Assembly: GCF_018024495.1 (NCBI RefSeq)
Contig: NZ_CP071696.1
Location: 2,356,001-2,420,000, forward strand
DNA length: 64,000 nucleotides
Direction: 5' to 3'
Origin: Agromyces archimandritae
GTDB taxonomy: Bacteria > Actinomycetota > Actinomycetes > Actinomycetales > Microbacteriaceae
Shown: positions 9,364-54,812 of the stretch, in pieces
Numbering within the stretch: the first letter of the stretch is position 1
Layout of the letters: every line of letters begins with the position of its first letter
Notes under the pieces: generated by a model
What the model was told of the DNA's origin: nothing
What the model saw: the letters and a program-made list of their open reading frames with translations, nothing else
Database searches by the model: none
Position numbers and translations under genes: made by a program

Positions 9364-10033
9364 GGGGTGCGCCGAGGCCGTGCCGGACGAGTTCCTGGGT
9401 GGCGGCGACGAGGTCTTCGAGGGTGCGGTGCCTGGGGTTCCACCATTCCGCCGCCCAGTTCATCGCGCCGAGCAGCAGGAACCGCGACACGGTCACATCC
9501 AGATCCGCCCGCAGCTGCCCGGCCTCCTGCGCCGCGATGAGCAGATCGCGCCAGAGCCGCGCGTATGCGGCCTCCTCGGCCGCCGATTTCGCGCGCAGCT
9601 CCTCGGGCACCTGGTTCGCGTTGCGGATGGATGCCGTCGTGTAGTCCGAGATCGCCAGCTCGTAACGCAGGTGCTCCTCGACGGCCTTCAGGATGCGCTC
9701 CAGCGGGGTCGCCTCGGTCGGCAGCGCGTCGAGTTCGGCGACGACATGCGCGTGCACGCGCGCCGCACCGACCCACATGACCTCTTCGATGAGTTCGTCG
9801 CGCGAGGCGAAGTGGTAGTAGATCGCCGGCGCCTGCACGCCGGCGTGCGCGGCGACGTCGGCGAGGCGCGTGCCGGCGTAGCCTTTGCGGCTCAGGACGT
9901 GCGCGGCGGCGTCGAGGATGCGTTCGCGGGTGCGGGCGGATTTCGTGGGGGCGGGCTTGGCGGCATCGGGTGCGGATGCCGCGGCGCCCCGCACCTCGGG
10001 GGCGTCACCGGCATCCACTCGCGCTCGCTCCAT
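9350..10033 (-). CDS. TetR-family transcriptional regulator
   Basis: A 227-residue TetR-type repressor. After a ~28-residue Ala/Pro-rich N-terminal extension comes the helix-turn-helix domain (TRERILDAAAHVLSRKGYAG ... IYYHFASRDELIEEV, about residues 34-85). The C-terminal half is the variable ligand-binding part. Its last five residues (PPPVE) and stop codon come from the adjacent repeat unit. No Shine-Dalgarno sequence precedes the ATG; a TAAGAT hexamer ends 8 bases before it, so a leaderless or very short leader is possible. Its position beside the beta-oxidation operon makes it the likely local regulator, sensing an acyl-CoA, though this is inference. Confidence 0.85.
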
Positions 10034-10037
10034 GGTT

Positions 10038-10058
10038 TCGAATCTTAGTTAAATTCGA
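10038..10058. promoter_or_regulatory. Candidate TetR autoregulatory operator
   Basis: An inverted repeat TCGAAT (10038-10043) - 9 bp - ATTCGA (10053-10058) lies immediately upstream of the TetR start, over the probable -10 element (TAAGAT on the minus strand). Size, symmetry and position suit a TetR-family operator. The same word is not found at the 3164-3210 promoter, so a wider regulon within this window is not shown. Confidence 0.45.
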
Positions 10059-10085
10059 TGCCGGCCGCACCGTCTGGCGCAGGAT

Positions 10086-10730
10086 TCAGGGGCCTGCGCT
10101 CCAGGGCGGCACGTCGTAGCCGAGGAGGCGGATGCGGGGCCGGTGCACCGCGCGCGACTCCGTCGCCCACGGGTAGACGACCGTGGTGACGGTGCAGTTG
10201 CCGAGCACGGGCAGCAGGTCGCGGTAGCCGTCCGGATCCATGCCGGCGAGTTCGCAGAACAGCAGCCGGATGAGGGTGGCGTGGGCCACGATGAGCACCC
10301 GCCCGTCGGGGAACTCCTCGGCGAGTTCGTTGAAGACCGGCAGTGCGCGGGCGACGCCGTCGCGCCCGCTCTCGCCGCCGGGGAACGGCTGCGTGGCCGG
10401 CGCTTCGCGGAACGCAGCCCACGCTTCCGGAAGCCGCGCTTCCAGTTCGGCGGGGGAGAGCCCCTCGGCCTCGCCGAAGTCGATCTCGGTGAGCCGGGCA
10501 TCCACTCGCAGCTCGAGGCCGGTGGTCTCGGCGGACGGGGCCGCCGAGCGCTTCGCGCGACTGAGGGGCGAGGCGACGATCGCGTCGAGCGCGGCATCCA
10601 CCGCCCACGCCCCGAGGGCGGCCGCCTGCCCGAGGCCGTGCCGGGTGAGCGCCACGTCCGAGTTGCCCGCGTAGCGATGCTCGGCGTGCCAGACCGTCTC
10701 GCCGTGCCGTGCGAGGAAGAAGGTCGTCAT
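10086..10730 (-). CDS. Histidine phosphatase family protein
   Basis: A 214-residue member of the phosphoglycerate-mutase-like histidine phosphatases. The N-terminus LARHGETVW gives the phospho-accepting His9 in the RHG motif; the second catalytic His150 is in IVAHATL. Arg-rich SPLSRAKRSA supplies the conserved SPLxRA element. The family covers cofactor-dependent mutases, alpha-ribazole phosphatases and broad phosphatases, and the substrate cannot be assigned. TAGCCT lies exactly 6 bases before the ATG, fitting a leaderless transcript. It is transcribed away from the DEAD-box helicase gene. Confidence 0.88.
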   Translation of the reverse strand: MTTFFLARHGETVWHAEHRYAGNSDVALTRHGLGQAAALGAWAVDAALDAIVASPLSRAKRSAAPSAETTGLELRVDARLTEIDFGEAEGLSPAELEARLPEAWAAFREAPATQPFPGGESGRDGVARALPVFNELAEEFPDGRVLIVAHATLIRLLFCELAGMDPDGYRDLLPVLGNCTVTTVVYPWATESRAVHRPRIRLLGYDVPPWSAGP

Positions 10731-26833: not shown

Positions 26834-27658
26834 CTACGCGGCGCGGCCCGCCTCGGCCTTCGCGCGCTGGATCTCCTCGAAGACGTGGGTGCGCAGCTCG
26901 GCGAACTCGGGCAGGGAACGGGTGCGGAGCTGGTCGCGCTCGCCGGGCAGCTCGATGCGCACGTCGTCCTGCACGACGGTGGGGGCCGCCGAGAGCACGA
27001 TGACGCGCTGGCCGAGGTAGACGGACTCGTCGATGTCGTGGGTGACGAAGAGGATGGTGATGCCGAGCTCGCGCCAGATCTTCAGGACGAGGTCTTCGAG
27101 GTCGGCGCGGGTCTGCGCATCCACTGCGGCGAAGGGCTCGTCCATCAGCAGCACTTCGGGGCGGTAGGCGACGGCGCGGGCGATCGCGACGCGTTGCTGC
27201 ATGCCGCCGGAGAGCTGCCACGGGTATTTGGCGCCGGCGTCGGCGAGGCCGACCTGTTCGAGGGCTTCGGCGGCGCGCGCCCGGCGTTCGGCCTTCGGCA
27301 CGCCCGCGCTCTTCAGGGGGAGCTCGACGTTGGCCGACACGCTCATCCACGGGAAGAGGCTGCGGCCGTACTCCTGGAACACGACGGCCATCGTCTTCGG
27401 CGGGGCCGTGATGTCCTTGCCGTGGAGTTCGAGCACGCCCGCGGTGCGCGGCAGGAGGCCGGCGACGCATTTCAGGAGCGTCGTCTTGCCGGCGCCGGAG
27501 GGGCCGACGATGCAGGCGAGCTGGCCGGCGGGCACCTCGAAGGTGAGGTCGCGGATGGCTTCGAAACCGCCGCCGGCGGTCGGGTACACCTTGCGGAGCC
27601 CGGCGACCTTGAGCATGGCCCCCTCGTGGGCGGGGGTGGACGTCGTGTCAGCTTTCAC
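26834..27658 (-). CDS. NitT/TauT-type ABC importer, ATP-binding subunit
   Basis: A 274-residue ABC ATPase of the SsuB/TauB/NrtD type: Walker A GPSGAGKTT, the Q-loop VFQEYGRSLFPWMSV, signature LSGGMQQRVAIARAV, Walker B VLLMDEPFAAVD, and FVTHDIDESVYLGQRV. These importers take up sulfonates, nitrate, pyrimidine precursors or aromatic acids such as phthalate. The GTG at 27658 has GAGAGG upstream and overlaps the permease gene by 11 bp. It ends a four-gene operon whose promoter carries the same operator candidate as the gal-like operon. Confidence 0.9.
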   Translation of the reverse strand: MKADTTSTPAHEGAMLKVAGLRKVYPTAGGGFEAIRDLTFEVPAGQLACIVGPSGAGKTTLLKCVAGLLPRTAGVLELHGKDITAPPKTMAVVFQEYGRSLFPWMSVSANVELPLKSAGVPKAERRARAAEALEQVGLADAGAKYPWQLSGGMQQRVAIARAVAYRPEVLLMDEPFAAVDAQTRADLEDLVLKIWRELGITILFVTHDIDESVYLGQRVIVLSAAPTVVQDDVRIELPGERDQLRTRSLPEFAELRTHVFEEIQRAKAEAGRAA

Positions 27659-28421
27659 GCTGCACCTCTCTCAGACCGTAGTACCAGCGCAGGATGCGTC
27701 GTTCGACGACGCGGAAGACGAGGGCCAGCCCGAGCCCGATGAGCCCGAGCACGAGGATGCCCGACCACATCTCGGGCACCGCGAAGGTGCGCTGGAACTG
27801 CACGATCGTGAAGCCGAGGCCGGAGGAGCTGTAGAACATCTCCGAGATGACCATGAGGATGAGGGCGATCGACAGGGACTGCCGCACGCCCGCGAGGATC
27901 TGCGGGCTCGCGGCCGGCAGGGTGAGGTAGCGGAGCCGGTCGAGGCGGCGGATGCCGTAGCTCGCGCACGTGTCGCGTTGCACCTCGTCGGTGGCGCGCA
28001 CGCCTTCGACGGTGTTCAGCAGGATCGGCCAGATCGATCCGGAGACGATCACGATGACCTTCATGAAGTCGTTGATGCCGAGGAAGAGCATGAGCAGCGG
28101 GATGAGCACGACGGGCGGCACGGCGCGGAAGAACTCGAGCAGGGGCTCGGTGAGCTGCCGCAGCCGTTTGACCGAGCCGATGAGGATGCCGAGGCCGACG
28201 CCGAGCACGATCGCGAGGACGATGCCGACGAGGAGGCGCCCGAGGCTCGGCAGGATGTCCTGCTGGAATCGGGGGCCGAACCAGGTGTCGACGAAGGTGG
28301 TGACGAGTTCGCCGGGGGTCGGCGCGAAGAAGCTCGTGGTGCCGATGGTCGCCCACCACCACCAGAGGATGAGGAGGACGGGCAGGGCGAGCAGGTAGGC
28401 GAGGTTCTTCAGGGCGGTCAT
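27648..28421 (-). CDS. NitT/TauT-type ABC importer permease (1)
   Basis: A 257-residue permease with six hydrophobic segments and the EAA loop CASYGIRRLDRLRYLTLPAASPQILAG in part. The start is ATG at 28421, sharing one base with the upstream permease stop (TGATG). Two different permeases in one operon suggest a heterodimeric channel, which is uncommon in NitT/TauT systems where one permease usually forms a homodimer. Confidence 0.9.
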   Translation of the reverse strand: MTALKNLAYLLALPVLLILWWWWATIGTTSFFAPTPGELVTTFVDTWFGPRFQQDILPSLGRLLVGIVLAIVLGVGLGILIGSVKRLRQLTEPLLEFFRAVPPVVLIPLLMLFLGINDFMKVIVIVSGSIWPILLNTVEGVRATDEVQRDTCASYGIRRLDRLRYLTLPAASPQILAGVRQSLSIALILMVISEMFYSSSGLGFTIVQFQRTFAVPEMWSGILVLGLIGLGLALVFRVVERRILRWYYGLREVQRES

Positions 28422-29260
28422 CACACGAGCTCCGTCCGCACCGAGGTGTGCCATTTCAGCGCTCGTCGTTCGACGAGGCGGGCCAGGAGGTTGATCGCCA
28501 CGCCGATGAGGCCGGTGGCGAGGATGAGCGCGTACATCGCGGTCACGTCGCCGCCGTCTTTGGTGTCGGCGATCTGCTTGCCGAGGCCGGGGGTGCCGAT
28601 GACGAGTTCGGCGGTGATCGCGAGGACGAGGGCGACGGTCGCGGCAAGGCGGATGCCGGTCATGAGGTAGGGCAGGGAGGTCGGCCAGACGACGTGGACG
28701 ATGCGCTGCCAGCGGTTCAGGCCGTAGCTCTTCGCGGTGGCGTCGGCGACGGGGTCGACGTCTTGCGTGCCGTAGATGACCTGGATGAGCACCTGCCAGA
28801 ACGAGGCGTAGACGATGAGCAGCAGGCTGGATTCGATCTTGATGCCGAACAGCAGCACGGCCAGGGGGATGAGGGCGACGGAGGGGATGGGGCGCAGGAA
28901 CTCGATCGTCGAGCGGGTGGCGTGCTCGAGGAAGCGGCTGGATCCGATGGCGAAGCCGAGCACGGCGCCGGCGACGATCGAGATGGCCAGGCCGATCGCC
29001 CAGGCGGTCATGGTTTCGCCGACGTCGCGCCAGAAGGCGAGGTCGCGCAGGTATTCGGCGAAGCGGATGACGACGCTGTGGGCGGGCGGGAGGAACCGGG
29101 GGTCGACGAGGCCGGTGAGGCTGACGAGTTCCCAGACGAGGAGGAAGACGATGACGCCGGCGAGGCCGAGGAGGCTGCCGAGGGCGGCGCCCGGGCGGCG
29201 GCGCGATGGCCGTCGCTCGGGCGCCGCGGGGGCGACCGTCGGGGGTTCGGTCGTGCTCAC
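28421..29260 (-). CDS. NitT/TauT-type ABC importer permease (2)
   Basis: A 279-residue permease with an extra ~25-residue Pro/Arg-rich N-terminus before the first membrane segment; the EAA loop is AKSYGLNRWQRIVHVVWPTS. GTG at 29260 (MSTTEPP) is the chosen start; a TTG six bases earlier, overlapping the binding-protein stop, is possible. It pairs with the 27648-28421 permease. The two share fold and motif order but differ widely in sequence, arguing for an old duplication. Confidence 0.88.
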   Translation of the reverse strand: MSTTEPPTVAPAAPERRPSRRRPGAALGSLLGLAGVIVFLLVWELVSLTGLVDPRFLPPAHSVVIRFAEYLRDLAFWRDVGETMTAWAIGLAISIVAGAVLGFAIGSSRFLEHATRSTIEFLRPIPSVALIPLAVLLFGIKIESSLLLIVYASFWQVLIQVIYGTQDVDPVADATAKSYGLNRWQRIVHVVWPTSLPYLMTGIRLAATVALVLAITAELVIGTPGLGKQIADTKDGGDVTAMYALILATGLIGVAINLLARLVERRALKWHTSVRTELV

Positions 29261-29262
29261 GG

Positions 29263-30237
29263 TCAAGGCAGCAGGGCGTCCAGGTCGGGTGCGGCGGTGA
29301 GGGCGCCGTACTTCACGGCGTCGTCGCCGAGCTTGGCTGCGGCGTCGCGGTCGATCTCGCTCGGGTACTTCGGCAGCACCATCTTCGCCAGCACCTCGGC
29401 GTCGGTCTTCGTGTAGGTGCCGATGATGTCGCGCACGGCGTCGGAGTCGTCCTGCGCGGCCTTCAGGGACTTGGCCATCGCCTGCTGGAAGGCTTCGACG
29501 ATCTCGGGGTTCTCGTCGGCGTAGGCCGCGGTGGTGAAGTAACTGGCGATGTCGAGGCTGTCGTCGAATTCGGCGTAGGCGTAGCTGACCACCCGGTCGC
29601 CGGCTTCGAGGGCGGCGGTGACGAAGGGTTCGACGACGAATCCGGCGTCGACCTGGCCGTTCTCGACGGCGGCGATGGTGTCGGGGAAGGCGACTTCGAC
29701 GAATTCGGCGGTGGATCCGTCGCCGCCTGCGGCGTCGATGGCGGCGCGGGTGACGACCTCGTTGATGTTGCCGACGGTGTTGCTGGAGATCTTCTTGCCG
29801 GCGAGGTCGGCGGGGGACTGGATGGGGCTGTCGGCTGTGACGATGACGGCGCCCATGTCGGCGGAGGTGTCGCCGGTGGTGGCCACGGCCGCCGAGACCG
29901 ACTTCAGGCCGAGGCCCTTCTCGTTGGCGACCATGAGCGAGAGCATGTTGCTGAAGCCGAACTGGTAGTCGCCGGCGACGACGGCGGGGGCGATGGCCGC
30001 GCCGCCGGTGGCGGTTTCGATGGTGAGGTCGAGGCCGGCGTCTTCGAAGTAGCCGAGGGATTCGCCGAGGTAGAGGGCTGCGGTGTCGGCGACCGGCATG
30101 AGCCCGACGGTGATGGGCGTGAGCTCGCCGCCGCCGTCGGAGGGCGCGGCGGAGCCGCCGGCGTCGGAGTCGGTGCAGCCGGACAGGGCCAGGACGGCGG
30201 CTGCCGCGACCGCGAGGGTGCGCAGGGTGTGCTTCAT
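29263..30237 (-). CDS. NitT/TauT-type substrate-binding lipoprotein
   Basis: A 324-residue ABC binding protein. The lipobox LSGC gives lipidated Cys21. The body matches the SsuA/THI5-like class: ITVGLMPVADTAALYLGESLGYFEDAGLDLTIE, and VENGQVDAGFVVEPFVTAAL. GGAG lies 5 bases before the ATG. It is first in the operon and the upstream 100 bp hold a TTGACA promoter and an operator candidate. Linkage to aromatic catabolism suggests an aromatic carboxylate as cargo; that is inference. Confidence 0.9.
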   Translation of the reverse strand: MKHTLRTLAVAAAAVLALSGCTDSDAGGSAAPSDGGGELTPITVGLMPVADTAALYLGESLGYFEDAGLDLTIETATGGAAIAPAVVAGDYQFGFSNMLSLMVANEKGLGLKSVSAAVATTGDTSADMGAVIVTADSPIQSPADLAGKKISSNTVGNINEVVTRAAIDAAGGDGSTAEFVEVAFPDTIAAVENGQVDAGFVVEPFVTAALEAGDRVVSYAYAEFDDSLDIASYFTTAAYADENPEIVEAFQQAMAKSLKAAQDDSDAVRDIIGTYTKTDAEVLAKMVLPKYPSEIDRDAAAKLGDDAVKYGALTAAPDLDALLP

Positions 30238-30355: not shown

Positions 30356-30439
30356 CCGGGGAACGCCGGTCCTGACGAGACTACGACGGGCCGGCCGACG
30401 CCGTCCCGCGCGAGCGGAAGGGATGCACGAATCGCCGGA

Positions 30440-30775
30440 TCCGGCGATTGAGGAGGCGCGCCAGTGCCGTATCCGCCGGTTGAGGAGGCGCGCAAGCGCC
30501 GTATCGAAACCTCGCACGGATCGCCGGGAGCGCGCGATCCGCCGGTTGAGGAGGCGCGCCAGCGCCGTATCGAAACCTCGTGAGCGTGCTCGCCGGAGCC
30601 GGGCAGGCGCCTCGCCGGGTTTCGATACGCTCGTTCCTCGCTACTCAACCGCCGGGTTTCGATACGGCGCCGGGGGCGCCTACTCAACCGGCGGGTTTCG
30701 ATACGGCGCCGGGGGCGCCTACTCAACCGGCGGGTTTCGATACGGCGCCGGGGGCGCCTCCTCAACCGGCGGGTG
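30440..30775. repeat. Second cluster of GGTTGAG...GTATCGAAACC repeat units
   Basis: Three left halves (about 30447, 30478, 30543) in plus orientation face four inverse halves (GGGTTTCGATACG ... CTACTCAACC, about 30617, 30653, 30691 and 30730). The last three are a 39-bp tandem with GGCGCCGGGGGCGCC hairpins inside. This is the same family as 8866-9363. The cluster fills the space between the importer promoter and the 3' end of the GntR gene; I see no gene between 30238 and 30794. Confidence 0.88.
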
Positions 30776-30794: not shown

Positions 30795-31424
30795 TCAGCG
30801 GTCGCCGGTGGCGAGGGTCTCGATGACGCTCCGCACATGCGCCGACATCGCGGCGGCGGCGGCCTCGGGGTCGCGTGCGCACACGGCATCCACGATCGCG
30901 AGGTGCTCGGGCAGGGAGACGGCGGGCCGCCCGGGGTAGAGGGAGAGGCGGAACTGGTGCCGGACCATCTGCCCGTTCAGCTGCTCGAGGATGCGGGCGG
31001 CCGTCGCATGGTCGGCGATCTCGCGCACGCGCGAGTGCAGTGCGGCGTTCAGGTCGGAGTAGCGCATGAGCTCGCCGGCGGCGACGGCCTCGCTCATCTG
31101 CGCGCCGAGATCCCGGAGCTCGGCGATCTGCTCGTCGTCGATGCGTTCGGCGGCGCGGGCGGCGACGAGCCCCTCGACCGTCTGGCGGATCTCGGTGATC
31201 TCGATGGCCTCGTCGACGCCGATCTCGCGCACGCGGGCCCCGCGGTTCGGCTGCAGCTCGACGAGCCCGTCGGCGGCGAGCTGGATGAGGGCGTTGCGGA
31301 TCGCGAACCTGCTGGCGTCGTACTCCTCGGCGAGGTCGGCCTCGATGAGGCGCTGCCGGGGCGCGTAGTCCCCGCGGAGGATGGCACTGCGCAGCCTCGT
31401 CCGCACGTCCTGCACATCGGTCAC
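30795..31424 (-). CDS. GntR-family (FadR/FCD-type) transcriptional regulator
   Basis: A 209-residue regulator: winged helix at residues 5-70 (LRSAILRGDYAPRQRLIEADLAEEYDASRFAIRNALIQLAADGL) and an all-helical FCD ligand domain with RYSDLNAALHSRVREIA and PEHLAIVDAV, the likely metal-ligand histidines. GTG at 31424 has GAGAGGA upstream. It is divergent from galB. An operator palindrome of FadR-type geometry lies over both promoters, so it probably represses this operon and the importer until an aromatic acid or pathway intermediate binds. Confidence 0.9.
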   Translation of the reverse strand: MTDVQDVRTRLRSAILRGDYAPRQRLIEADLAEEYDASRFAIRNALIQLAADGLVELQPNRGARVREIGVDEAIEITEIRQTVEGLVAARAAERIDDEQIAELRDLGAQMSEAVAAGELMRYSDLNAALHSRVREIADHATAARILEQLNGQMVRHQFRLSLYPGRPAVSLPEHLAIVDAVCARDPEAAAAAMSAHVRSVIETLATGDR

Positions 31425-31451: not shown

Positions 31452-31513
31452 ATTCTGTCGCAGCGCATGTCGTCAGCAAAATTGTTGACAATCATGGTGA
31501 CGACGTGCATAGC
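31452..31513. promoter_or_regulatory. Divergent gntR/galB promoters with operator
   Basis: Plus strand: a perfect -35 TTGACA (31485-31490) is 17 bp from CATAGC (31508-31513), ahead of the galB start at 31541. Minus strand: TTGCTG (31479 to 31474) is 16 bp from CAGAAT (31457 to 31452), ahead of the GntR gene. The palindrome ATTGT-TG-ACAAT (31481-31492) covers the plus -35 and abuts the minus -35, so a bound repressor would shut both. Confidence 0.65.
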
Positions 31514-31540: not shown

Positions 31541-32272
31541 ATGTCGAATCAGTCGCCGCTTCTCGTCGTCACGGCGCACCCCGGTGATTTCGTCTGGCGC
31601 GCGGGCGGGGCGATCGCCCTGGCCGCACACCGCGGTCAGCGCGCCGTCATCGCCTGCCTGAGCTTCGGGGAGCGCGGCGAATCCGCCAGTGCCTGGCGCG
31701 CCGGCAAGACGCTCGAGGAGATCAAGGAGCTGCGCCGCACCGAGGGGCAGACCGCCGCCGACGCGCTCGGCGCCGAGGTGCGCTTCTTCGACGCCGGCGA
31801 CTACCCCCTCGTCGAGACGCCCGAACTCGTCCAGCAGCTCATCGACCTCTACCGCGAGCTGCAGCCCTCGGTCGTGCTCACCCACGCCGCAGCCGACCCC
31901 TACAACATGGACCATCCGAAGGCCGCCGAGATCGCCATGCGCGCCCGCGTCCTCGCCCAGGCGCCCGGCGTCGCCGGCCCCGGCGAGGTCATCGGCGCCC
32001 CGCCCGTCTTCTGCTTCGAACCCCACCAGAGCGAGGTGTGCGGCTTCACACCCGACGTGCTCCTCGACATCACCGAGGTGTGGGATCGCAAAGTCGCCGC
32101 GATGAACGCCCTCGGCGCTCAGGGCCACCTCGTCGAGTACTACACCGACCTCGGCAAGCGCCGCGGCGTGCAGGCCAAGCGCAACAGCGGCCCGAACCTC
32201 GGCCTGCCGGTGAACACCCGCGCCGAAGCCTTCCAGCGCGTCTACCCGCAGGTCGCCTCGGAGCTGGCCTGA
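31541..32272 (+). CDS. galB: 4-oxalomesaconate hydratase-like PIG-L/LmbE protein (GalB type)
   Basis: A 243-residue PIG-L-fold protein. Most LmbE proteins read AHPDDE; this one reads AHPGDFVWRAGGAIAL, followed by CLSFGERGESASAW and ending EHL/HLVEYYTDLGKRRGVQAKRN. That is the pattern I recall for GalB of Pseudomonas putida gallate degradation, which hydrates 4-oxalomesaconate to 4-carboxy-4-hydroxy-2-oxoadipate. The start at 31541 has GGAGG 5 bases upstream; an in-frame ATG at 31505 lies in the promoter. It is the first gene of an operon with galC- and galD-like genes, which supports the assignment. Confidence 0.82.
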   Translation: MSNQSPLLVVTAHPGDFVWRAGGAIALAAHRGQRAVIACLSFGERGESASAWRAGKTLEEIKELRRTEGQTAADALGAEVRFFDAGDYPLVETPELVQQLIDLYRELQPSVVLTHAAADPYNMDHPKAAEIAMRARVLAQAPGVAGPGEVIGAPPVFCFEPHQSEVCGFTPDVLLDITEVWDRKVAAMNALGAQGHLVEYYTDLGKRRGVQAKRNSGPNLGLPVNTRAEAFQRVYPQVASELA

Positions 32273-32976
32273 TGCCCGCCCGCCACCTCGTCGTCCGCGA
32301 GATCGACCGGGCCGAGGCCGCCGTCATCGACCGCCTCGGAGCCGCCGGGGTCGCCACGGCCCACGAGGCCGCCGGCCGCATCGGCCTCCTCGGCCCGCAC
32401 GTCCTGCCCCGCCAGCAGGGCGCCGCCATCGCCGGCAGCGCCGTCACCGTGCTCTGCCAGCCGGGCGACAACCTCATGATCCACGCCGCCGTCGAGGTCT
32501 GCCGCCCCGGCGACGTGCTCGTCGTGGCCACCACGAGCGAGTCGGTCACGGGCATGTTCGGCGACCTGCTGGCGACCTCGCTCGCCGCCCGCGGCGTCCG
32601 CGGCCTCGTCACCGACTCGGGCGTGCGCGACATCGCCGTGCTCCGCGAGGCCGGCTTCCCCGTCTGGGCGCGCGGCGTGCACGCCCAGGGCACGGTCAAA
32701 GCCAGCGCCGGTTCGGTGAACGTGCCCGTCGTCGTCGACGGATGCCCCGTCCGCCCCGGCGACATCGTCGTCGCCGACGACGACGGGGTGCTCGTGCTGC
32801 CGATCGAACGCGGCGCCGAGGTCGCCGACGCCGCCGAGGCCCGAATCGCGGGCGAAGAGGCCAAGCGCGCGCAGTTCGCCGGCGGCGCCCTCGGCGTCGA
32901 GCTCTACGGGCTCCGGCCCCTGCTGGAGCGCCTCGGCGTCGAATACGTCGACCGCCTGCCCGAGGGGGAGCGATGA
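32272..32976 (+). CDS. galC: 4-carboxy-4-hydroxy-2-oxoadipate aldolase-like RraA-fold protein (GalC type)
   Basis: A 234-residue RraA-family protein. The catalytic stretch GVRGLVTDSGVRDI places Arg119-Asp120 where class II pyruvate aldolases bind substrate and metal, and GDLLA (97-101) gives the pyruvate-binding loop. In gallate and protocatechuate 4,5-cleavage pathways this enzyme splits 4-carboxy-4-hydroxy-2-oxoadipate into pyruvate and oxaloacetate. Its ATG shares one base with the galB stop (TGATG), and it overlaps the next gene by 4 bp. Confidence 0.86.
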   Translation: MPARHLVVREIDRAEAAVIDRLGAAGVATAHEAAGRIGLLGPHVLPRQQGAAIAGSAVTVLCQPGDNLMIHAAVEVCRPGDVLVVATTSESVTGMFGDLLATSLAARGVRGLVTDSGVRDIAVLREAGFPVWARGVHAQGTVKASAGSVNVPVVVDGCPVRPGDIVVADDDGVLVLPIERGAEVADAAEARIAGEEAKRAQFAGGALGVELYGLRPLLERLGVEYVDRLPEGER

Positions 32977-33782
32977 CGCGCGTCGCGATCCTCGGCCTCG
33001 GCGAGGCGGGGCGGATGTTCGCCCGCGCCCTCGCCGGCACGGCCGAGGTGACCGCCTGGGATCCGTTCGCCGCCCCCGAGATCGACGGGGTGCGGCTCGC
33101 CGCCGACGCGGCCGAGGCGGTGTCGGGTGCGGATGCCGTACTCGCCCTCACGACGGCCGCCCACTCCGCCGAGGCCCTGGCATCCACCCGCGAACACGCC
33201 CCCGCCGGCGCCCTGCACGGCGACTTCGCCACCGGCGGCCCCGCCGGCAAACGGGACCTCGCCGAACGCGCCGCGGCCGGCGGCATCCGCTTCGCCGACG
33301 CGGCCATCATGGCGCCCGTGCGCCGCGGCGCTGCAGGTACCCCCGTGTTGGTCTCGGGGGATGGGGCCGGCGATCTCGCGGCGATCCTCACCGCCGCGGG
33401 CCTGCCCGTCGAGGTCCTGCCCGGCCCGCCCGGCACCGCCGCCGCCCGCAAACTCCTCCGCAGCCTGCTCGTGAAGGGGCTCACGGGCGTCATGATCGAA
33501 TCCCTCCGCGCCGCCGAACGCGAGGGGCTCGGCGACTGGTTCGGCGAGCACCTCGTCGACACCCTCACCGGCCTCGACCGGGCAGCCCTCGCCGGCTTCC
33601 TCGACGGCACGGCCACGCACGCCGGCCGCCGTATCGAGGAGATGGAGGCCGCCGCCGACATGGCCGAGGCCGCAGGCGGCCGCGCCGACATCGCCCGCGC
33701 CGTCGCCCGCGTGCTCGCCCTGGTCGCCGGCGACCCGGCGGCCGGCGAGGGCGGCGAGGCCGTGCCGAGGCTCGCACCGTGA
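32973..33782 (+). CDS. NAD(P)-binding 6-phosphogluconate-dehydrogenase-like oxidoreductase (DUF1932 type)
   Basis: A 269-residue protein with an N-terminal Rossmann fold (VAILGLGEAGRMFARALAG, residues 4-22) and a helical C-terminal half that fits DUF1932 proteins related to beta-hydroxyacid dehydrogenases (LLRSLLVKGLTGVMIESLRAAEREG). The GDFATGGPAGKRDL stretch replaces the usual substrate-binding DAPVSGG motif. The role is unknown: it could oxidise or reduce a hydroxy/keto dicarboxylate of the gal-like pathway, or act where LigC acts in protocatechuate 4,5-cleavage. ATGA and GTGA overlaps with both neighbours show tight co-translation. Confidence 0.82.
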   Translation: MTRVAILGLGEAGRMFARALAGTAEVTAWDPFAAPEIDGVRLAADAAEAVSGADAVLALTTAAHSAEALASTREHAPAGALHGDFATGGPAGKRDLAERAAAGGIRFADAAIMAPVRRGAAGTPVLVSGDGAGDLAAILTAAGLPVEVLPGPPGTAAARKLLRSLLVKGLTGVMIESLRAAEREGLGDWFGEHLVDTLTGLDRAALAGFLDGTATHAGRRIEEMEAAADMAEAAGGRADIARAVARVLALVAGDPAAGEGGEAVPRLAP

Positions 33783-34867
33783 CCGCCGGCATCCCGTGCA
33801 TGCTCATGCGCGGCGGCACCTCGAAAGGGGCCTACTTCCTCGCCGACGAACTGCCGGCCGACCCCGCCGAACGCGACGGGCTGCTGCTCCGCATCATGGG
33901 CTCGCCCGACGCGCGCGAGATCGACGGGCTCGGCGGCGGGCATCCGCTCACCAGCAAGGTCGCCGTCGTCTCGCCCTCGGCAGACCCGGACGCCGACGTC
34001 GACTACCTCTTCCTGCAGGTCGTGCCCGACCGCCCGATCGTCTCCGACGCGCAGACCTGCGGCAACCTGCTCGCCGGCGTCGGCGCCTTCGCGATCGAAC
34101 GCGGCCTCGTCGCCGCCGGCCCCGAGACGACGACCGTGCGCATCCGCCGCGTGAACCCCTCGCCGGCGCTCGTCGTCGCGACCGTGCAGACCCCCGGCGG
34201 CCGGGTCGACTACGACGGTGCCGAGGAGATGAGCGGCGTCCCGTTCCCCGCCGCGCCGGTGCGGCTCGAGTTCCCCGGCGACGGCACGCCGTTGTTCCCG
34301 ACGGGGCGGCTCGTCGACCGTTTCGACGGCCTCGAGGTGTCGTGCGTGGATGCCGGGATGCCGGTCGTCCTCATCCGCGCCGCCGACCTCGGGCTCGCCG
34401 GCGACGAGGCGCCCGCCGTGCTCGAGGGCGACGCGGCCCTGCGCAGCCGCCTCGAAACCGTGCGCCTGGCCGCAGGAACGGAGATGGGCCTCGGCGACGT
34501 GACCCGGCAGACCGTCCCCAAGCTCTCCATCTGCTCGCCCGCCCGCCACGGCGGCCTCGTCGCCACCCGCACCTTCATCCCGCACCGCGTGCACGAAGCC
34601 ATCGGGGTGCTCGGCGCCGTCTCGGTCGTCGCCGGCGTCCGCACCCCCGGCACCGTCGTGTTCGACCCGGCCGCAGCAGGCCGCCCCGCGCTCGTCGAGC
34701 ACCCCACCGGAGCCTTCGCCGCCGAGGTGACGCTCGCCGGGAGCGGGCCGGAGACCTCGCTCGCGGCATCCACCGTCGTCAGAACCGCCCGCAAGATCAT
34801 GGACGGGCGCGTCTTCCCGCGCCCGCCGGAACCCGAGGAGGCGCAGGCGGCGCCATCCACTCCCTGA
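33779..34867 (+). CDS. galD: 4-oxalomesaconate tautomerase-like PrpF-family protein (GalD type)
   Basis: A 362-residue PrpF-family isomerase with the N-terminal signature MRGGTSKG (residues 10-17) and QTCGN with Cys94 in the diaminopimelate-epimerase-like active site. GalD interconverts keto and enol forms of 4-oxalomesaconate; other PrpF members isomerise aconitates, so the assignment rests partly on galB and galC in the same operon. It starts with GTG overlapping the preceding stop. Confidence 0.86.
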   Translation: MTAGIPCMLMRGGTSKGAYFLADELPADPAERDGLLLRIMGSPDAREIDGLGGGHPLTSKVAVVSPSADPDADVDYLFLQVVPDRPIVSDAQTCGNLLAGVGAFAIERGLVAAGPETTTVRIRRVNPSPALVVATVQTPGGRVDYDGAEEMSGVPFPAAPVRLEFPGDGTPLFPTGRLVDRFDGLEVSCVDAGMPVVLIRAADLGLAGDEAPAVLEGDAALRSRLETVRLAAGTEMGLGDVTRQTVPKLSICSPARHGGLVATRTFIPHRVHEAIGVLGAVSVVAGVRTPGTVVFDPAAAGRPALVEHPTGAFAAEVTLAGSGPETSLAASTVVRTARKIMDGRVFPRPPEPEEAQAAPSTP

Positions 34868-34916
34868 CCCGCCGCGCCCCGGCATCCACACCCGAATCAC
34901 GCACCCCAGGAGCACC

Positions 34917-35891
34917 ATGAACGTCGAAGCAGCCCTCACCCACGACCCCGAACGCCGCCGGGATCTCGCCCATGTCGGCCCCGTCGAGCTGTACACGCCC
35001 GTGCTCGAGGCCAGCCGCGACTTCTTCGTGAACCAGATGGCGCTCACCGAGGTCGGCCGCGACGAGCGCTCCGTGTACCTGCACGCCTGGGACGATTACC
35101 AGTCGTGGACGCTGCGCCTCATCGAACGCGAGCAGGCCGGCGTCGGCACGACGTTCCTGCGGGCGGCGAGCGCCGGGGCGTACGAGCGGATGCGCGCCGC
35201 GATCGAGGCGAGCGGGCAGCGCGTCGACCTCGACGACGGCGTGCGCGGGCTGGGGGAGGTGACCCGCTTCGCCGACCCGGACGGGCACCCGATGGCCGTG
35301 TACTGGGACGTCGACTGGTACGAAGCGGGCGATGGCGACCGGCCGTCGCTGAAGAACCAGGCCGCAGCCTTCCCGGGCCGCGGGGCGAACGTGCGCCGCC
35401 TCGACCACGTCAACTACCTCACGAAGGACGTGCCGAACACGAGCCGCTTCCTCTCCGAGGTGCTCGGCGCCCGGTGCACCGAACGCATCGTCACCGATGA
35501 GGGCGAGGATGCGGCGATCTGGTACAGCCTCGGCAACAAGAGCTACGACCTCGTCTACACCGAGGATTGGACGGGCGCGAACGGGCGCCTCCACCACATC
35601 GCCTTCGCGACCGATACGCGCGAGGACATCCTGCGCGCCGCCGACGTCATGCTCGAAGCGGGCATCCACATCGAGACGGGGCCGCACAAGCACGCCATCC
35701 AGCAGACCTTCTTCCTGTACGTGTGGGAGCCGGGCGGCAACCGCATCGAGCTGTGCAACGCGGGCGCGCGCCTCATCCTCGCCCCCGACTGGAAGACGAT
35801 CTCGTGGACGGCCGCCGAACGCGCGAAGGGTCAGGCGTGGGGGTTGAAGACGATCGACACCTTCCACACGCACGGCACGCCCCTCGTGTGA
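34917..35891 (+). CDS. Type I extradiol dioxygenase (catechol 2,3-dioxygenase-like, VOC fold)
   Basis: A 324-residue two-domain VOC protein. The iron ligands align with those of XylE: His164 (RLDHVNY), His227 (LHHIAF) and Glu278 (NRIEL), with nearly the same spacing. Second-sphere His259 and Tyr268 also match. The position of XylE His199, a proton-transfer residue, is Tyr210 here (NKSYDLVY). It would open an ortho-diphenolic ring next to the hydroxyls. AGGAG lies 5-6 bases before the ATG, 49 bp after galD, so it probably belongs to the operon. Gallate pathways known to me use a LigB-type dioxygenase instead, making the substrate an open question. Confidence 0.88.
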   Translation: MNVEAALTHDPERRRDLAHVGPVELYTPVLEASRDFFVNQMALTEVGRDERSVYLHAWDDYQSWTLRLIEREQAGVGTTFLRAASAGAYERMRAAIEASGQRVDLDDGVRGLGEVTRFADPDGHPMAVYWDVDWYEAGDGDRPSLKNQAAAFPGRGANVRRLDHVNYLTKDVPNTSRFLSEVLGARCTERIVTDEGEDAAIWYSLGNKSYDLVYTEDWTGANGRLHHIAFATDTREDILRAADVMLEAGIHIETGPHKHAIQQTFFLYVWEPGGNRIELCNAGARLILAPDWKTISWTAAERAKGQAWGLKTIDTFHTHGTPLV

Positions 35892-35951: not shown

Positions 35952-36740
35952 ATGGCGTCGAGCAACATCACCATCACCCACGCCGAGACCGGCGTCGTCA
36001 CGGCCGAGGTCGTCGAGGCCCGGCGGATCTCGCCGAATTTCGTGCGCCTCACCCTCGCCGGCGAGCAGCTCGCCGACTGGCGCCACGTCGGCTTCGACCA
36101 GTGGTTCCGGCTCGCGGTGCCGACGAACGACGGCACCCGCTTCGACAACCTCTCCGGCACCTACGACATGGCCGGCTACCTCCGCTATCTCACGCTGCCG
36201 CGTGCGACACGCCCCGTCATCCGCAACTACACCGTCCGCGAGTTCCGCGCCGAGGCCGGCGAGCTCGACATCGACTTCGTGGTGCACGGGTCCGATGGCG
36301 TCGCCGGGCCGTGGGCGGCGGGCCTGCCGCTCGGTGCGCACGTCGCGCTCATCGACCAGGGCGCGGGTTTCTCCCCGGTGGATGCCGCACGCACCCTCCT
36401 CGTCGGCGACGAGTCGGCGATGCCGGCCGTGCTCGGCATCCTCCGCGACCTGCCCCGCGACACCGCCGGCGACGCCCTCATCGAGCTCGCCGACGAGGGC
36501 GACCGGCAGCCCGACGAAGCCCCCGACGGCGTCGAGGTGCACTGGATCGTCCGCGAGCCCGGGCAGGCGCCAGGCGTCGCAGCCCTCGAGCATCTGCGCG
36601 AGCTGGCCGTCGACGAGTCCGTCACCGCCTTCGCCGCCGGGGAGTCGAAGCTCGCCACCGGCGCCCGCCGCCACCTCGTCGGCGAGCGCGGTGTGCCGAA
36701 GCAGGCCGTCACCTTCTGCGGGTACTGGCGGGCCCACTGA
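35952..36740 (+). CDS. Siderophore-interacting protein (ferric-siderophore reductase)
   Basis: A 262-residue protein of the SIP/ViuB family. The FAD-binding motif RNYTVR is at residues 91-96 in a ferredoxin-reductase-like beta-barrel; the C-terminal half is the NAD(P)H-binding domain ending VTFCGYWRAH, a family hallmark. It reduces ferric siderophores in the cytoplasm. AGGAGG is 5 bases before the ATG and a near-perfect iron box lies just upstream. It is a single gene, and the Fes-like esterase at 18832 could act on the same siderophore class. Confidence 0.93.
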   Translation: MASSNITITHAETGVVTAEVVEARRISPNFVRLTLAGEQLADWRHVGFDQWFRLAVPTNDGTRFDNLSGTYDMAGYLRYLTLPRATRPVIRNYTVREFRAEAGELDIDFVVHGSDGVAGPWAAGLPLGAHVALIDQGAGFSPVDAARTLLVGDESAMPAVLGILRDLPRDTAGDALIELADEGDRQPDEAPDGVEVHWIVREPGQAPGVAALEHLRELAVDESVTAFAAGESKLATGARRHLVGERGVPKQAVTFCGYWRAH

Positions 36741-54014: not shown

Positions 54015-54812
54015 ATGACCCAGCAAGCCCCCGCACCCGAGTCGCTGCTCGCGACCGCCGTGCAAGACGAACAGTCCACCATCAGCCGCGAGATCGCCGA
54101 ACTGCACGCCGAGCGCGACCGCGGCCCCGGCACCGGCGTCGAGATCGACTTCGCACCGTACCGCTCGAGCATCCTGCGGCACCCCACGAAGAACCCGAAG
54201 CTCGCCGACCCCGAGGCGATCGAGCTCACCTCGCCGGCCTACGGGCAGCGCGACGTCGCCCGGATCGAGTCCGACCTCACCCTGCAGCACACCGGCGAAC
54301 CCCTCGGCGAACGCATCGTCGTCACCGGGCGCGTGCTCGACGGCTGGGGCCGGCCCGTCCGCAACCAGCTCATCGAGATCTGGCAGGCCAACGCCGCCGG
54401 CCGCTACATCCACCAGCGCGACCAGCACCCCGCCCCCCTCGACCCGAACTTCACGGGCGCCGGCCGCGTCATCACGGGCGACGACGGCTCGTACCGCTTC
54501 ACGACGATCAAGCCCGGCGCGTACCCGTGGAAGAACCACCGCAACGCCTGGCGGCCCGCGCACATCCACTTCTCCGTGTTCGGCAGCGCCTTCACCCAGC
54601 GCATCGTGACGCAGATGTACTTCCCCGGCGACCCGCTGTTCGCCCTCGACCCGATCTACCAGTCGATCCCGAACCAGGCCGACCGCGAACGCCTCGTCGC
54701 CGCCTACGACCACGACCTCACGAGCCCCGAGTTCTCCCTCGGCTACCGCTGGGACATCGTGCTCACCGGCCCGAAAGCGATCTGGTCCGAGCCCGAGGAG
54801 GGCGAGCACTGA
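54015..54812 (+). CDS. pcaH: Protocatechuate 3,4-dioxygenase, beta subunit
   Basis: A 265-residue intradiol dioxygenase beta chain. The Fe(III) ligands Tyr131, Tyr170, His183 and His185 are all present (GRYIHQRDQHP; AYPWKNHRNAWRPAHIHFS). It cleaves protocatechuate between the hydroxyls to 3-carboxy-cis,cis-muconate. AAGGAG precedes the ATG. The stop overlaps the pcaG start (TGATG). The N-terminal ~45 residues are longer than in the Pseudomonas protein. Confidence 0.96.
   Translation: MTQQAPAPESLLATAVQDEQSTISREIAELHAERDRGPGTGVEIDFAPYRSSILRHPTKNPKLADPEAIELTSPAYGQRDVARIESDLTLQHTGEPLGERIVVTGRVLDGWGRPVRNQLIEIWQANAAGRYIHQRDQHPAPLDPNFTGAGRVITGDDGSYRFTTIKPGAYPWKNHRNAWRPAHIHFSVFGSAFTQRIVTQMYFPGDPLFALDPIYQSIPNQADRERLVAAYDHDLTSPEFSLGYRWDIVLTGPKAIWSEPEEGEH

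Follow-up and report, generated by a model that had tools for sequence, protein, structure and literature searches.

A VOC-fold extradiol dioxygenase encoded with GalB, GalC and GalD relatives is probably a type I gallate dioxygenase

Introduction

Which enzyme opens the aromatic ring for the five-gene operon at positions 31541-35891 of the Agromyces archimandritae DNA analyzed here? The stretch (hereafter, the window) comprises 64,000 nucleotides, positions 2356001-2420000 of a 3.45-Mb single-contig genome, and positions below are window coordinates unless another sequence is named. The operon encodes relatives of GalB, GalC and GalD, the lower pathway for 4-oxalomesaconate, together with a VOC-fold (type I) extradiol dioxygenase. 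Extradiol cleavage of protocatechuate yields a semialdehyde that is then oxidized before a lactone is opened, whereas gallate, a constituent of plant tannins, when cleaved beside its third hydroxyl group gives 4-oxalomesaconate at once. An earlier examination of the letters alone (the sequence-only reading) had left two options: the VOC enzyme converts a carboxylated catechol to a precursor of 4-oxalomesaconate, or a DUF1932-type dehydrogenase encoded within the gene block bridges from a ring-cleavage semialdehyde.

Here, we propose that the operon encodes a complete pathway for gallate, with the VOC-fold enzyme opening the ring in place of the LigB-fold (type II) dioxygenase GalA/DesB; we assign this reading a probability of roughly 0.72. 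The proposal draws on gene content, synteny, the presence and absence of genes and family-specific residues, from which the substrate, cleavage position, transport and regulation are predicted.

Results

The five genes all lie on the forward strand and form one tight operon. The first, galB (31541-32272), encodes a predicted PIG-L-fold 4-oxalomesaconate hydratase (PF02585, 84.6 bits), whose best match among solved structures is the 4-oxalomesaconate hydratase 5cgz (261 bits, E 9.6e-77); the NCBIfam profile scan returned no GalB model above its cut-off. The product of galC (32272-32976), a predicted RraA-fold aldolase, passes the NCBIfam model for 4-carboxy-4-hydroxy-2-oxoadipate (CHA) aldolase/oxaloacetate decarboxylase (NF006731, 315.7 bits against a cut-off of 179), falls slightly under the cut-off of the narrower LigK model TIGR02798 (287.3 against 304.5), and is closest among solved structures to the CHA aldolase 3noj (249 bits). 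The PrpF-fold product of galD (33779-34867) reaches the 4-oxalomesaconate tautomerase model NF033377 with 440.3 bits against a cut-off of 440, is closest to 6p3j, a (4E)-oxalomesaconate delta-isomerase (333 bits), and is single-copy in its genome, where the next match scores 19 bits. All three lower-pathway proteins of the gal pathway are represented, GalB by its similarity to 5cgz. Between galC and galD lies a gene for a DUF1932/6PGDH-like NAD(P)-dependent dehydrogenase (32973-33782; PF09130, 47.8 bits; PF03446, NAD_binding_2, 27.7 bits). Successive genes from galB to galD overlap by 1-4 bases, and a gap of 49 bases separates galD from the VOC gene (34917-35891; PF00903, 63.6 bits). The Pfam scan found no LigB-fold GalA/DesB in the operon and reported no PF02900 match for the VOC enzyme. 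The identities and coordinates of galB, galC and galD in the sequence-only reading, and its DUF1932-type dehydrogenase within the overlapping block, are thus confirmed by profile and solved-structure matches. Its claim that the VOC protein is the only ring-cleaving enzyme holds for the operon and fails for the genome, which has two LigB-fold genes about 680 kb away and, within the window, a gene for a protocatechuate 3,4-dioxygenase beta subunit (54147-54785), followed by a weaker match to the same family that is probably the alpha subunit.

The surroundings of the VOC gene were compared in the best 80 of at least 379 confirmed relatives (about 60-84% identical), fetched with two peptide patterns. 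Unless stated otherwise, counts refer to the 62 loci in which the VOC gene has 9 kb or more of flanking sequence on each side; the other 18, with less than 9 kb on one side, were left out. A gene was counted when its distance from the VOC gene, in either direction, was no more than about 10 kb. Pathway genes were counted by tblastn; an open reading frame (ORF)-filtered presence table lost real genes through shadow ORFs (GalB in locus L009, the VOC gene in L010). A 4-oxalomesaconate hydratase was present in 59 of the 62 loci, GalC in 58, GalD in 58 and all three in 55 (65 of the full 80). The association of the VOC gene with the lower pathway, complete in these 55 loci from other genomes, is far beyond chance. 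The sequence-only reading had proposed a search for the same five-gene order elsewhere: the exact order GalB-GalC-dehydrogenase-GalD-VOC recurs in 8 of the 80 loci (L007, L008, L009, L013, L033, L035, L036 and L039). Among the tested pathway families, L032 has only GalB, GalC, GalD and the VOC enzyme. One contig, L080, bears the title Rhodococcus sp., yet the origin table of the tree places it in Cyanobacteriota; it is probably a mislabelled bin.

The hydratase itself provides a further argument. It is GalB in 34 of the 62 loci and the unrelated LigJ in 25, and the two never occur together; a LigJ representative matches the 4-oxalomesaconate hydratase 2gwg with 589 bits. On the VOC tree (95 rows), the LigJ label requires eight changes, and at least six of these are forced by well-supported branches. 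This repeated exchange of unrelated hydratases for one reaction beside the VOC gene indicates that hydration of 4-oxalomesaconate follows the VOC step.

A search starting from GalD (E 1e-60) sampled 396 genomes of the phylum and found this protein in nine. In eight of the nine, including our own, a VOC gene adjoins GalD, and in the ninth (L111) a LigB gene occurs with LigI and LigJ; the sample is neither large nor neutral, as it leans towards VOC partners because the query GalD came from a VOC operon, and six of the eight genomes besides our own belong to one genus. Within the stretch fetched, none of the seven new VOC loci, six of them from one genus, has DUF1932 or LigI, while six have GalB (L105 has no hydratase) and six have a major facilitator superfamily gene like an aromatic-acid-type query. 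Within the genus the system is sporadic: a VOC relative at E 1e-50 was found in 3 of 37 genomes, including our own. A strict DNA pattern of the family motif matched only two of 297 genomes of the order, both in this genus and one of them our own; its strictness prevents any estimate of frequency.

A LigB-fold enzyme hidden near the block or elsewhere in the genome could have supplied 4-oxalomesaconate, and both places were searched. Near the VOC gene, four LigB query proteins (at least 45 bits) detected LigB in only 2 of the 62 loci (L014 and L066). The sequence-only reading, which a LigB gene beside the block would have undermined, therefore survived this check, and a hidden neighbor is rejected as a general answer. 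Whole genomes or records, chosen by us from the loci, were examined for LigB (43), tannase (38), DUF1932 (27), LigI-like proteins (15) and protocatechuate 3,4-dioxygenase TIGR02422 (14). PF02900 was present in 30 of the 43 carriers and found in none of the other 13, so that a LigB-fold enzyme elsewhere in the genome is likewise rejected as a general answer; these genomes, reached via the loci, come with no completeness figure, and two of the 13 (L008 and L067) are metagenome-assembled. Twelve of the 13 have the complete set in the VOC locus, the exception being L067, in which GalD was not found.

The two LigB-fold genes of A. archimandritae score 37.7 and 45.4 against a gallate dioxygenase cut-off of 412, as measured on cut-out matched stretches, and adjoin two amidohydrolases and an aldehyde dehydrogenase. 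In this region (3068219-3080315 of the genome; 3219-15315 of the fetched stretch L103), two pairs of amidohydrolase and LigB-fold genes lie about 10 kb apart, with the aldehyde dehydrogenase gene and, by eye, ABC-transporter genes between them; the LigB scores are far under the cut-offs of known subfamilies. The region is another aromatic pathway.

The DUF1932 gene was present in 38 of the 62 loci. Eighteen of the 55 complete loci lack it, and for six of these 18 genomes the whole-genome search found no DUF1932 gene anywhere (seven of all 27 genomes searched). The dehydrogenase is therefore rejected as a required bridge, and the second option of the sequence-only reading gains no support as a general route. 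The lactone hydrolase that this option needs was also not found in our own genome: no LigI-like match appeared at E 1e-10 with a Roseomonas query that is distant and itself only LigI-like (best NCBIfam match 4-sulfomuconolactone hydrolase, under the cut-off). We regard the dehydrogenase as an optional accessory and assign it no role; a search of the open-licence literature for DUF1932 and aromatic compounds led nowhere.

Three isolates are particularly informative. Antribacter gilvus (L010), Antribacter soli (L011) and Curtobacterium pusillum (L032) have the VOC enzyme, GalB, GalC and GalD, and searches of their genomes for LigB, DUF1932 and LigI-like genes (the last with the distant query) found none of these, suggesting that the product of the VOC enzyme should be 4-oxalomesaconate itself. 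Furthermore, protocatechuate 3,4-dioxygenase is encoded in 13 of the 14 genomes tested, including our own, which indicates that protocatechuate has its own route there.

The VOC enzyme scores under the cut-off of the catechol 2,3-dioxygenase model TIGR03211 (288.3 against 320.2), although this is its best NCBIfam match, and also under that of HpaD. Its AlphaFold2 model (pLDDT 82.2) is closest to the solved folds AphC 7q2a and 3lm4, and the Foldseek match to 7q2a (E 1.6e-33, TM 0.84) identifies a two-domain VOC fold. By homology, His164, His227 and Glu278 are the metal ligands of a 2-His-1-Glu site; all three are present in 80 of 80 loci and are invariant also among the listed database proteins and the plasmid loci described below. 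In HMMER-printed alignments, the catalytic His200 of homoprotocatechuate 2,3-dioxygenase (HPCD) from Brevibacterium fuscum aligns with Tyr210, with no gap up to a conserved Trp. Thus, the enzyme does not have the catalytic second-sphere His of type I extradiol dioxygenases. Tyr occupies this position in all 120 listed database proteins (that of the window included), 13 of 14 plasmid loci, all seven VOC genes found via GalD and 80 of 80 loci, the last count being biased because one of the two fetching patterns contains this Tyr. In the available excerpt of a study of HPCD, His200 is the second-sphere base, and the rate is vanishingly small without it (PMC10760822). Three residues that the Thermus thermophilus enzyme lacks, Lys208, Arg285 and Arg302, show little or no variation across the Tyr group and are candidates for carboxylate binding. 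Public records currently label the Tyr-type proteins as catechol 2,3-dioxygenase or VOC family protein.

Tannase-family genes (PF07519) were found in 22 of 38 carrier genomes, in about 48 copies after we merged 56 hit rows, some of them fragments and one under the cut-off. Twelve lie inside the approximately 21-kb VOC locus (12 of 37 relatives), against about 0.1 expected at random, and their positions agree between the locus tblastn and the whole-genome search; the tblastn count over the 62 loci is 13. We also opened 14 of 71 matching plasmid records. On a pAt plasmid of Agrobacterium from walnut, genes for PIG-L (galB), VOC, ligK, 4-oxalomesaconate tautomerase (galD) and a tannase/feruloyl esterase (PF07519, 438 bits) stand in a row, and the core of the first four recurs on plasmids of Agrobacterium vitis (grapevine) and Thioclava (mangrove soil). 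The exception to Tyr among the plasmids is the T. thermophilus enzyme, 41% identical, which has His and whose operon, with dmpG and acetaldehyde dehydrogenase, is an ordinary one for catechol meta-cleavage. The enzyme of Thermus oshimai, 53% identical, has Tyr and adjoins PIG-L, ligK and a DUF1932-like dehydrogenase; on this plasmid (L098), a DUF6282 protein is encoded between the GntR and PIG-L genes (9588-10508 of that locus), and the cluster has no annotated GalD. On a Pantoea piersonii plasmid (1296-6018 of locus L090), galB-ligK-galD-dehydrogenase is followed by a MetE-like gene, and the VOC gene lies roughly 4 kb beyond; the arrangement is a possible link to O-demethylation.

Upstream of the operon, a GntR/FCD-family regulator is encoded divergently (30795-31424, reverse strand; PF07729, 94.4 bits; PF00392, 53.9 bits), and members of its ORF cluster occur in 53 of 85 loci examined; most small families among these conserved-neighbor clusters were not named. 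The divergent promoter region between the regulator gene and galB contains the perfect palindrome ATTGTTGACAAT at 31481-31492, and TTGTNNACAA occurs only there in the window. Of 11 relatives examined, nine have a site of the same type at a distance of 50-118 bases upstream of the galB match, and two (L008 and L032) have none. Since the palindrome is the only copy in the window and is kept upstream of galB in most of these relatives, it is likely an operator of the GntR protein.

Beyond the regulator, an ABC importer of the SsuABC/NMT1 type is encoded on the reverse strand (26834-30237), comprising the ATPase (26834-27658), a permease (27648-28454), a second permease (28421-29266) and the substrate-binding protein (29263-30237); the ATPase, one permease and the binding protein were assigned by Pfam and NCBIfam. 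Relatives of both the binding protein and the ATPase occur in the VOC locus of 29 of the 62 relatives, and the importer probably takes up the substrate. The gap between importer and regulator contains a tandem repeat at 30641-30774 (39-base unit, 3.4 copies, 97%) and a weaker 32-base repeat at 30433-30505. Directly 3' of the VOC gene, a siderophore-interacting-protein (FAD-binding) gene (35952-36740) has no relative in the other loci by tblastn.

Discussion

Our analysis points to gallate, a carboxylated trihydroxybenzene, as the most likely substrate of the VOC enzyme and to 4-oxalomesaconate as its product, on the grounds of carbon bookkeeping and of the genomes without LigB, DUF1932 and LigI-like genes. 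Gallate would be imported, in A. archimandritae probably by the divergent NMT1/SsuABC-type transporter, and in some relatives a tannase-family esterase could release it. The VOC enzyme would cut the C4-C5 bond of gallate; because C5 is hydroxylated, the product would be the dicarboxylic 4-oxalomesaconate and not a semialdehyde, so that no dehydrogenase would be needed. GalD would then tautomerize 4-oxalomesaconate, GalB would hydrate it to CHA, and GalC would split CHA into pyruvate and oxaloacetate. The first option of the sequence-only reading gains support from the full lower pathway in 55 of 62 loci and from the 13 of 43 carriers without LigB, and is sharpened here from an unspecified carboxylated catechol to the conversion of gallate to 4-oxalomesaconate. 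More broadly, the Tyr-for-His VOC subfamily probably represents a second type of gallate dioxygenase that evolved independently of the first. It would serve the gallate/tannin pathway of many Actinomycetota, and members are found as well on plasmids of Pantoea, Thermus and plant-associated Alphaproteobacteria.

Several observations weigh against the gallate proposal. In the open-licence literature we found no biochemical datum on the activity of the VOC enzyme or a close relative. Its nearest solved relative, 9wgj (347 bits), is labelled "Catechol 1,2-dioxygenase", and our literature search found no paper for this entry. With the catalytic His lost, the enzyme may also have changed its reaction, and the Tyr count in the 80 loci and the GalD sample carry the biases given above. 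A. archimandritae has its two distant LigB-fold genes, and the genome search found no PF07519 gene in it; moreover, PF07519 is not specific for gallate, since it also contains feruloyl esterases and MHETase, and the best solved relatives of the Agrobacterium tannase-family protein are MHETases and feruloyl esterases. In seven of the 62 loci the set is incomplete (L019, L026, L038, L055, L066, L067 and L075), 2 of the 13 Tyr-type plasmid loci (L091 and L092; L100 fell outside this test) have no lower-pathway gene within 10 kb, and in a Roseomonas locus of the plasmid set a LigB gene adjoins the VOC gene. Nor does pure gallate chemistry account for how common DUF1932 is. LigI-like genes occur in 3 of the 62 loci, including those of Arthrobacter (L062 and L065), and anywhere in the genome in 4 of the 13 LigB-free carriers (29-46% identical). 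C. pusillum, one of the three key genomes, is alone among the 14 in having no TIGR02422 match, and the genes for PobA (4-hydroxybenzoate 3-monooxygenase) and a Rieske oxygenase beside the T. oshimai cluster hint at protocatechuate there.

These points leave room for three other explanations. The VOC enzyme may be a protocatechuate 4,5-dioxygenase whose product is converted by a LigC-like DUF1932 enzyme to 2-pyrone-4,6-dicarboxylate, with some hydrolase opening the lactone before GalB, GalC and GalD finish the pathway. This would account for the DUF1932 gene inside the operon and in 38 of the 62 loci, for its recurrence with the VOC cluster in Alphaproteobacteria and Thermus, for the 4-hydroxybenzoate 3-monooxygenase of T. 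oshimai and for the LigI-like genes of three loci and four LigB-free genomes. However, we consider it unlikely: 18 of 55 complete clusters manage without DUF1932, and six of these 18 genomes have none; 10 of 14 genomes tested, including our own, have no LigI-like match, which is weak evidence alone given the distant query; 13 of 14 genomes encode a protocatechuate 3,4-dioxygenase; and LigI accompanies the LigB-type actinobacterial GalD locus L111 but, within the stretch fetched, none of the seven new VOC-type loci. Somewhat less probable again is that the VOC enzyme acts on some other carboxylated catechol or pyrogallol, for example 3-O-methylgallate or a different ring collapsing to 4-oxalomesaconate, gallate being at best a side substrate. 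Cleavage of methylgallate in strain SYK-6 gives 2-pyrone-4,6-dicarboxylate, and the LigI-like genes of the two Arthrobacter loci would fit such a product. Gallate is itself a predicted substrate, and VOC enzymes take varied catechols, including homoprotocatechuate and 2,3-dihydroxybenzoate (an excerpt of PMC4250580). In contrast, some complete clusters, such as L032, comprise only GalB, GalC, GalD and the VOC enzyme among the tested families, tannase-family genes co-occur, and no O-demethylase was found among the conserved neighbor families that could be named, most small ones being unnamed.

The third explanation, an ordinary catechol 2,3-dioxygenase beside a lower pathway that a distantly encoded LigB-type enzyme of the same genome supplies, takes up the best NCBIfam match, TIGR03211, and the LigB-fold genes of our own genome (two) and of 30 of the 43 carriers. 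It is very improbable, as 13 of the 43 have no LigB-fold gene and the neighbors of the distant LigB genes of A. archimandritae are amidohydrolases and an aldehyde dehydrogenase. An ordinary catechol meta-cleavage enzyme is rejected on the score under the TIGR03211 cut-off, on the replacement of the catalytic His by Tyr in all family members examined, and on its different neighbors: no conserved neighbor family that could be named belongs to a catechol meta-pathway, unlike the surroundings of the His-type Thermus enzyme.

If gallate is indeed the substrate of the VOC enzyme, ring opening in gallate catabolism would be a case of non-homologous replacement. Many proteins now labelled "catechol 2,3-dioxygenase" would have their labels corrected, and the VOC gene would serve as a marker for gallate degraders beyond galA and desB. 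The conserved Tyr in place of His also offers a natural test of the role of the second-sphere base in a well-studied enzyme class.

In the part of the AromaDeg description available, gallate dioxygenases belong to the LigB superfamily, and the type I substrates are listed without gallate (PMC4250580); our search of the open-licence PMC literature found no description of a VOC-type gallate dioxygenase. The gal pathway of Pseudomonas putida KT2440 comprises galA, galB, galC and galD with galT, galP and galR (as excerpted from PMC9942251), and shares with the present operon the GalB, GalC and GalD relatives and the same predicted reactions. It differs in its gallate dioxygenase, which is of the LigB fold (excerpt of PMC4250580) and in whose place the VOC enzyme is found here, and in having the LysR-type GalR, GalT and GalP, whereas the present locus has a GntR regulator, an ABC importer and an additional DUF1932 dehydrogenase. 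DesB of Sphingobium sp. SYK-6 carries out the reaction proposed here, gallate ring opening, but is a type II extradiol dioxygenase (excerpt of PMC3962378). The protocatechuate 4,5-cleavage cluster of Pseudarthrobacter phenanthrenivorans Sphe3 is likewise actinobacterial and proceeds via 4-oxalomesaconate; it does so with the type II dioxygenase PcaA, a CHMS dehydrogenase and a PDC hydrolase (PMC8431788). Among type I enzymes, the catechol 2,3-dioxygenases (XylE and AphC; TIGR03211) share the fold and overall similarity with the VOC enzyme, which differs from them in its score under the family cut-off, its neighbors and its Tyr for His. HPCD of B. fuscum shares the type I fold and equivalent metal ligands, and its substrate is a carboxylated catechol; its His200 is replaced by Tyr210, and its R243, which presumably contacts the substrate carboxylate, aligns with Thr254 by our count along the alignment. 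The novelty is thus the predicted activity of a VOC enzyme at the ring-opening step of an otherwise known pathway.

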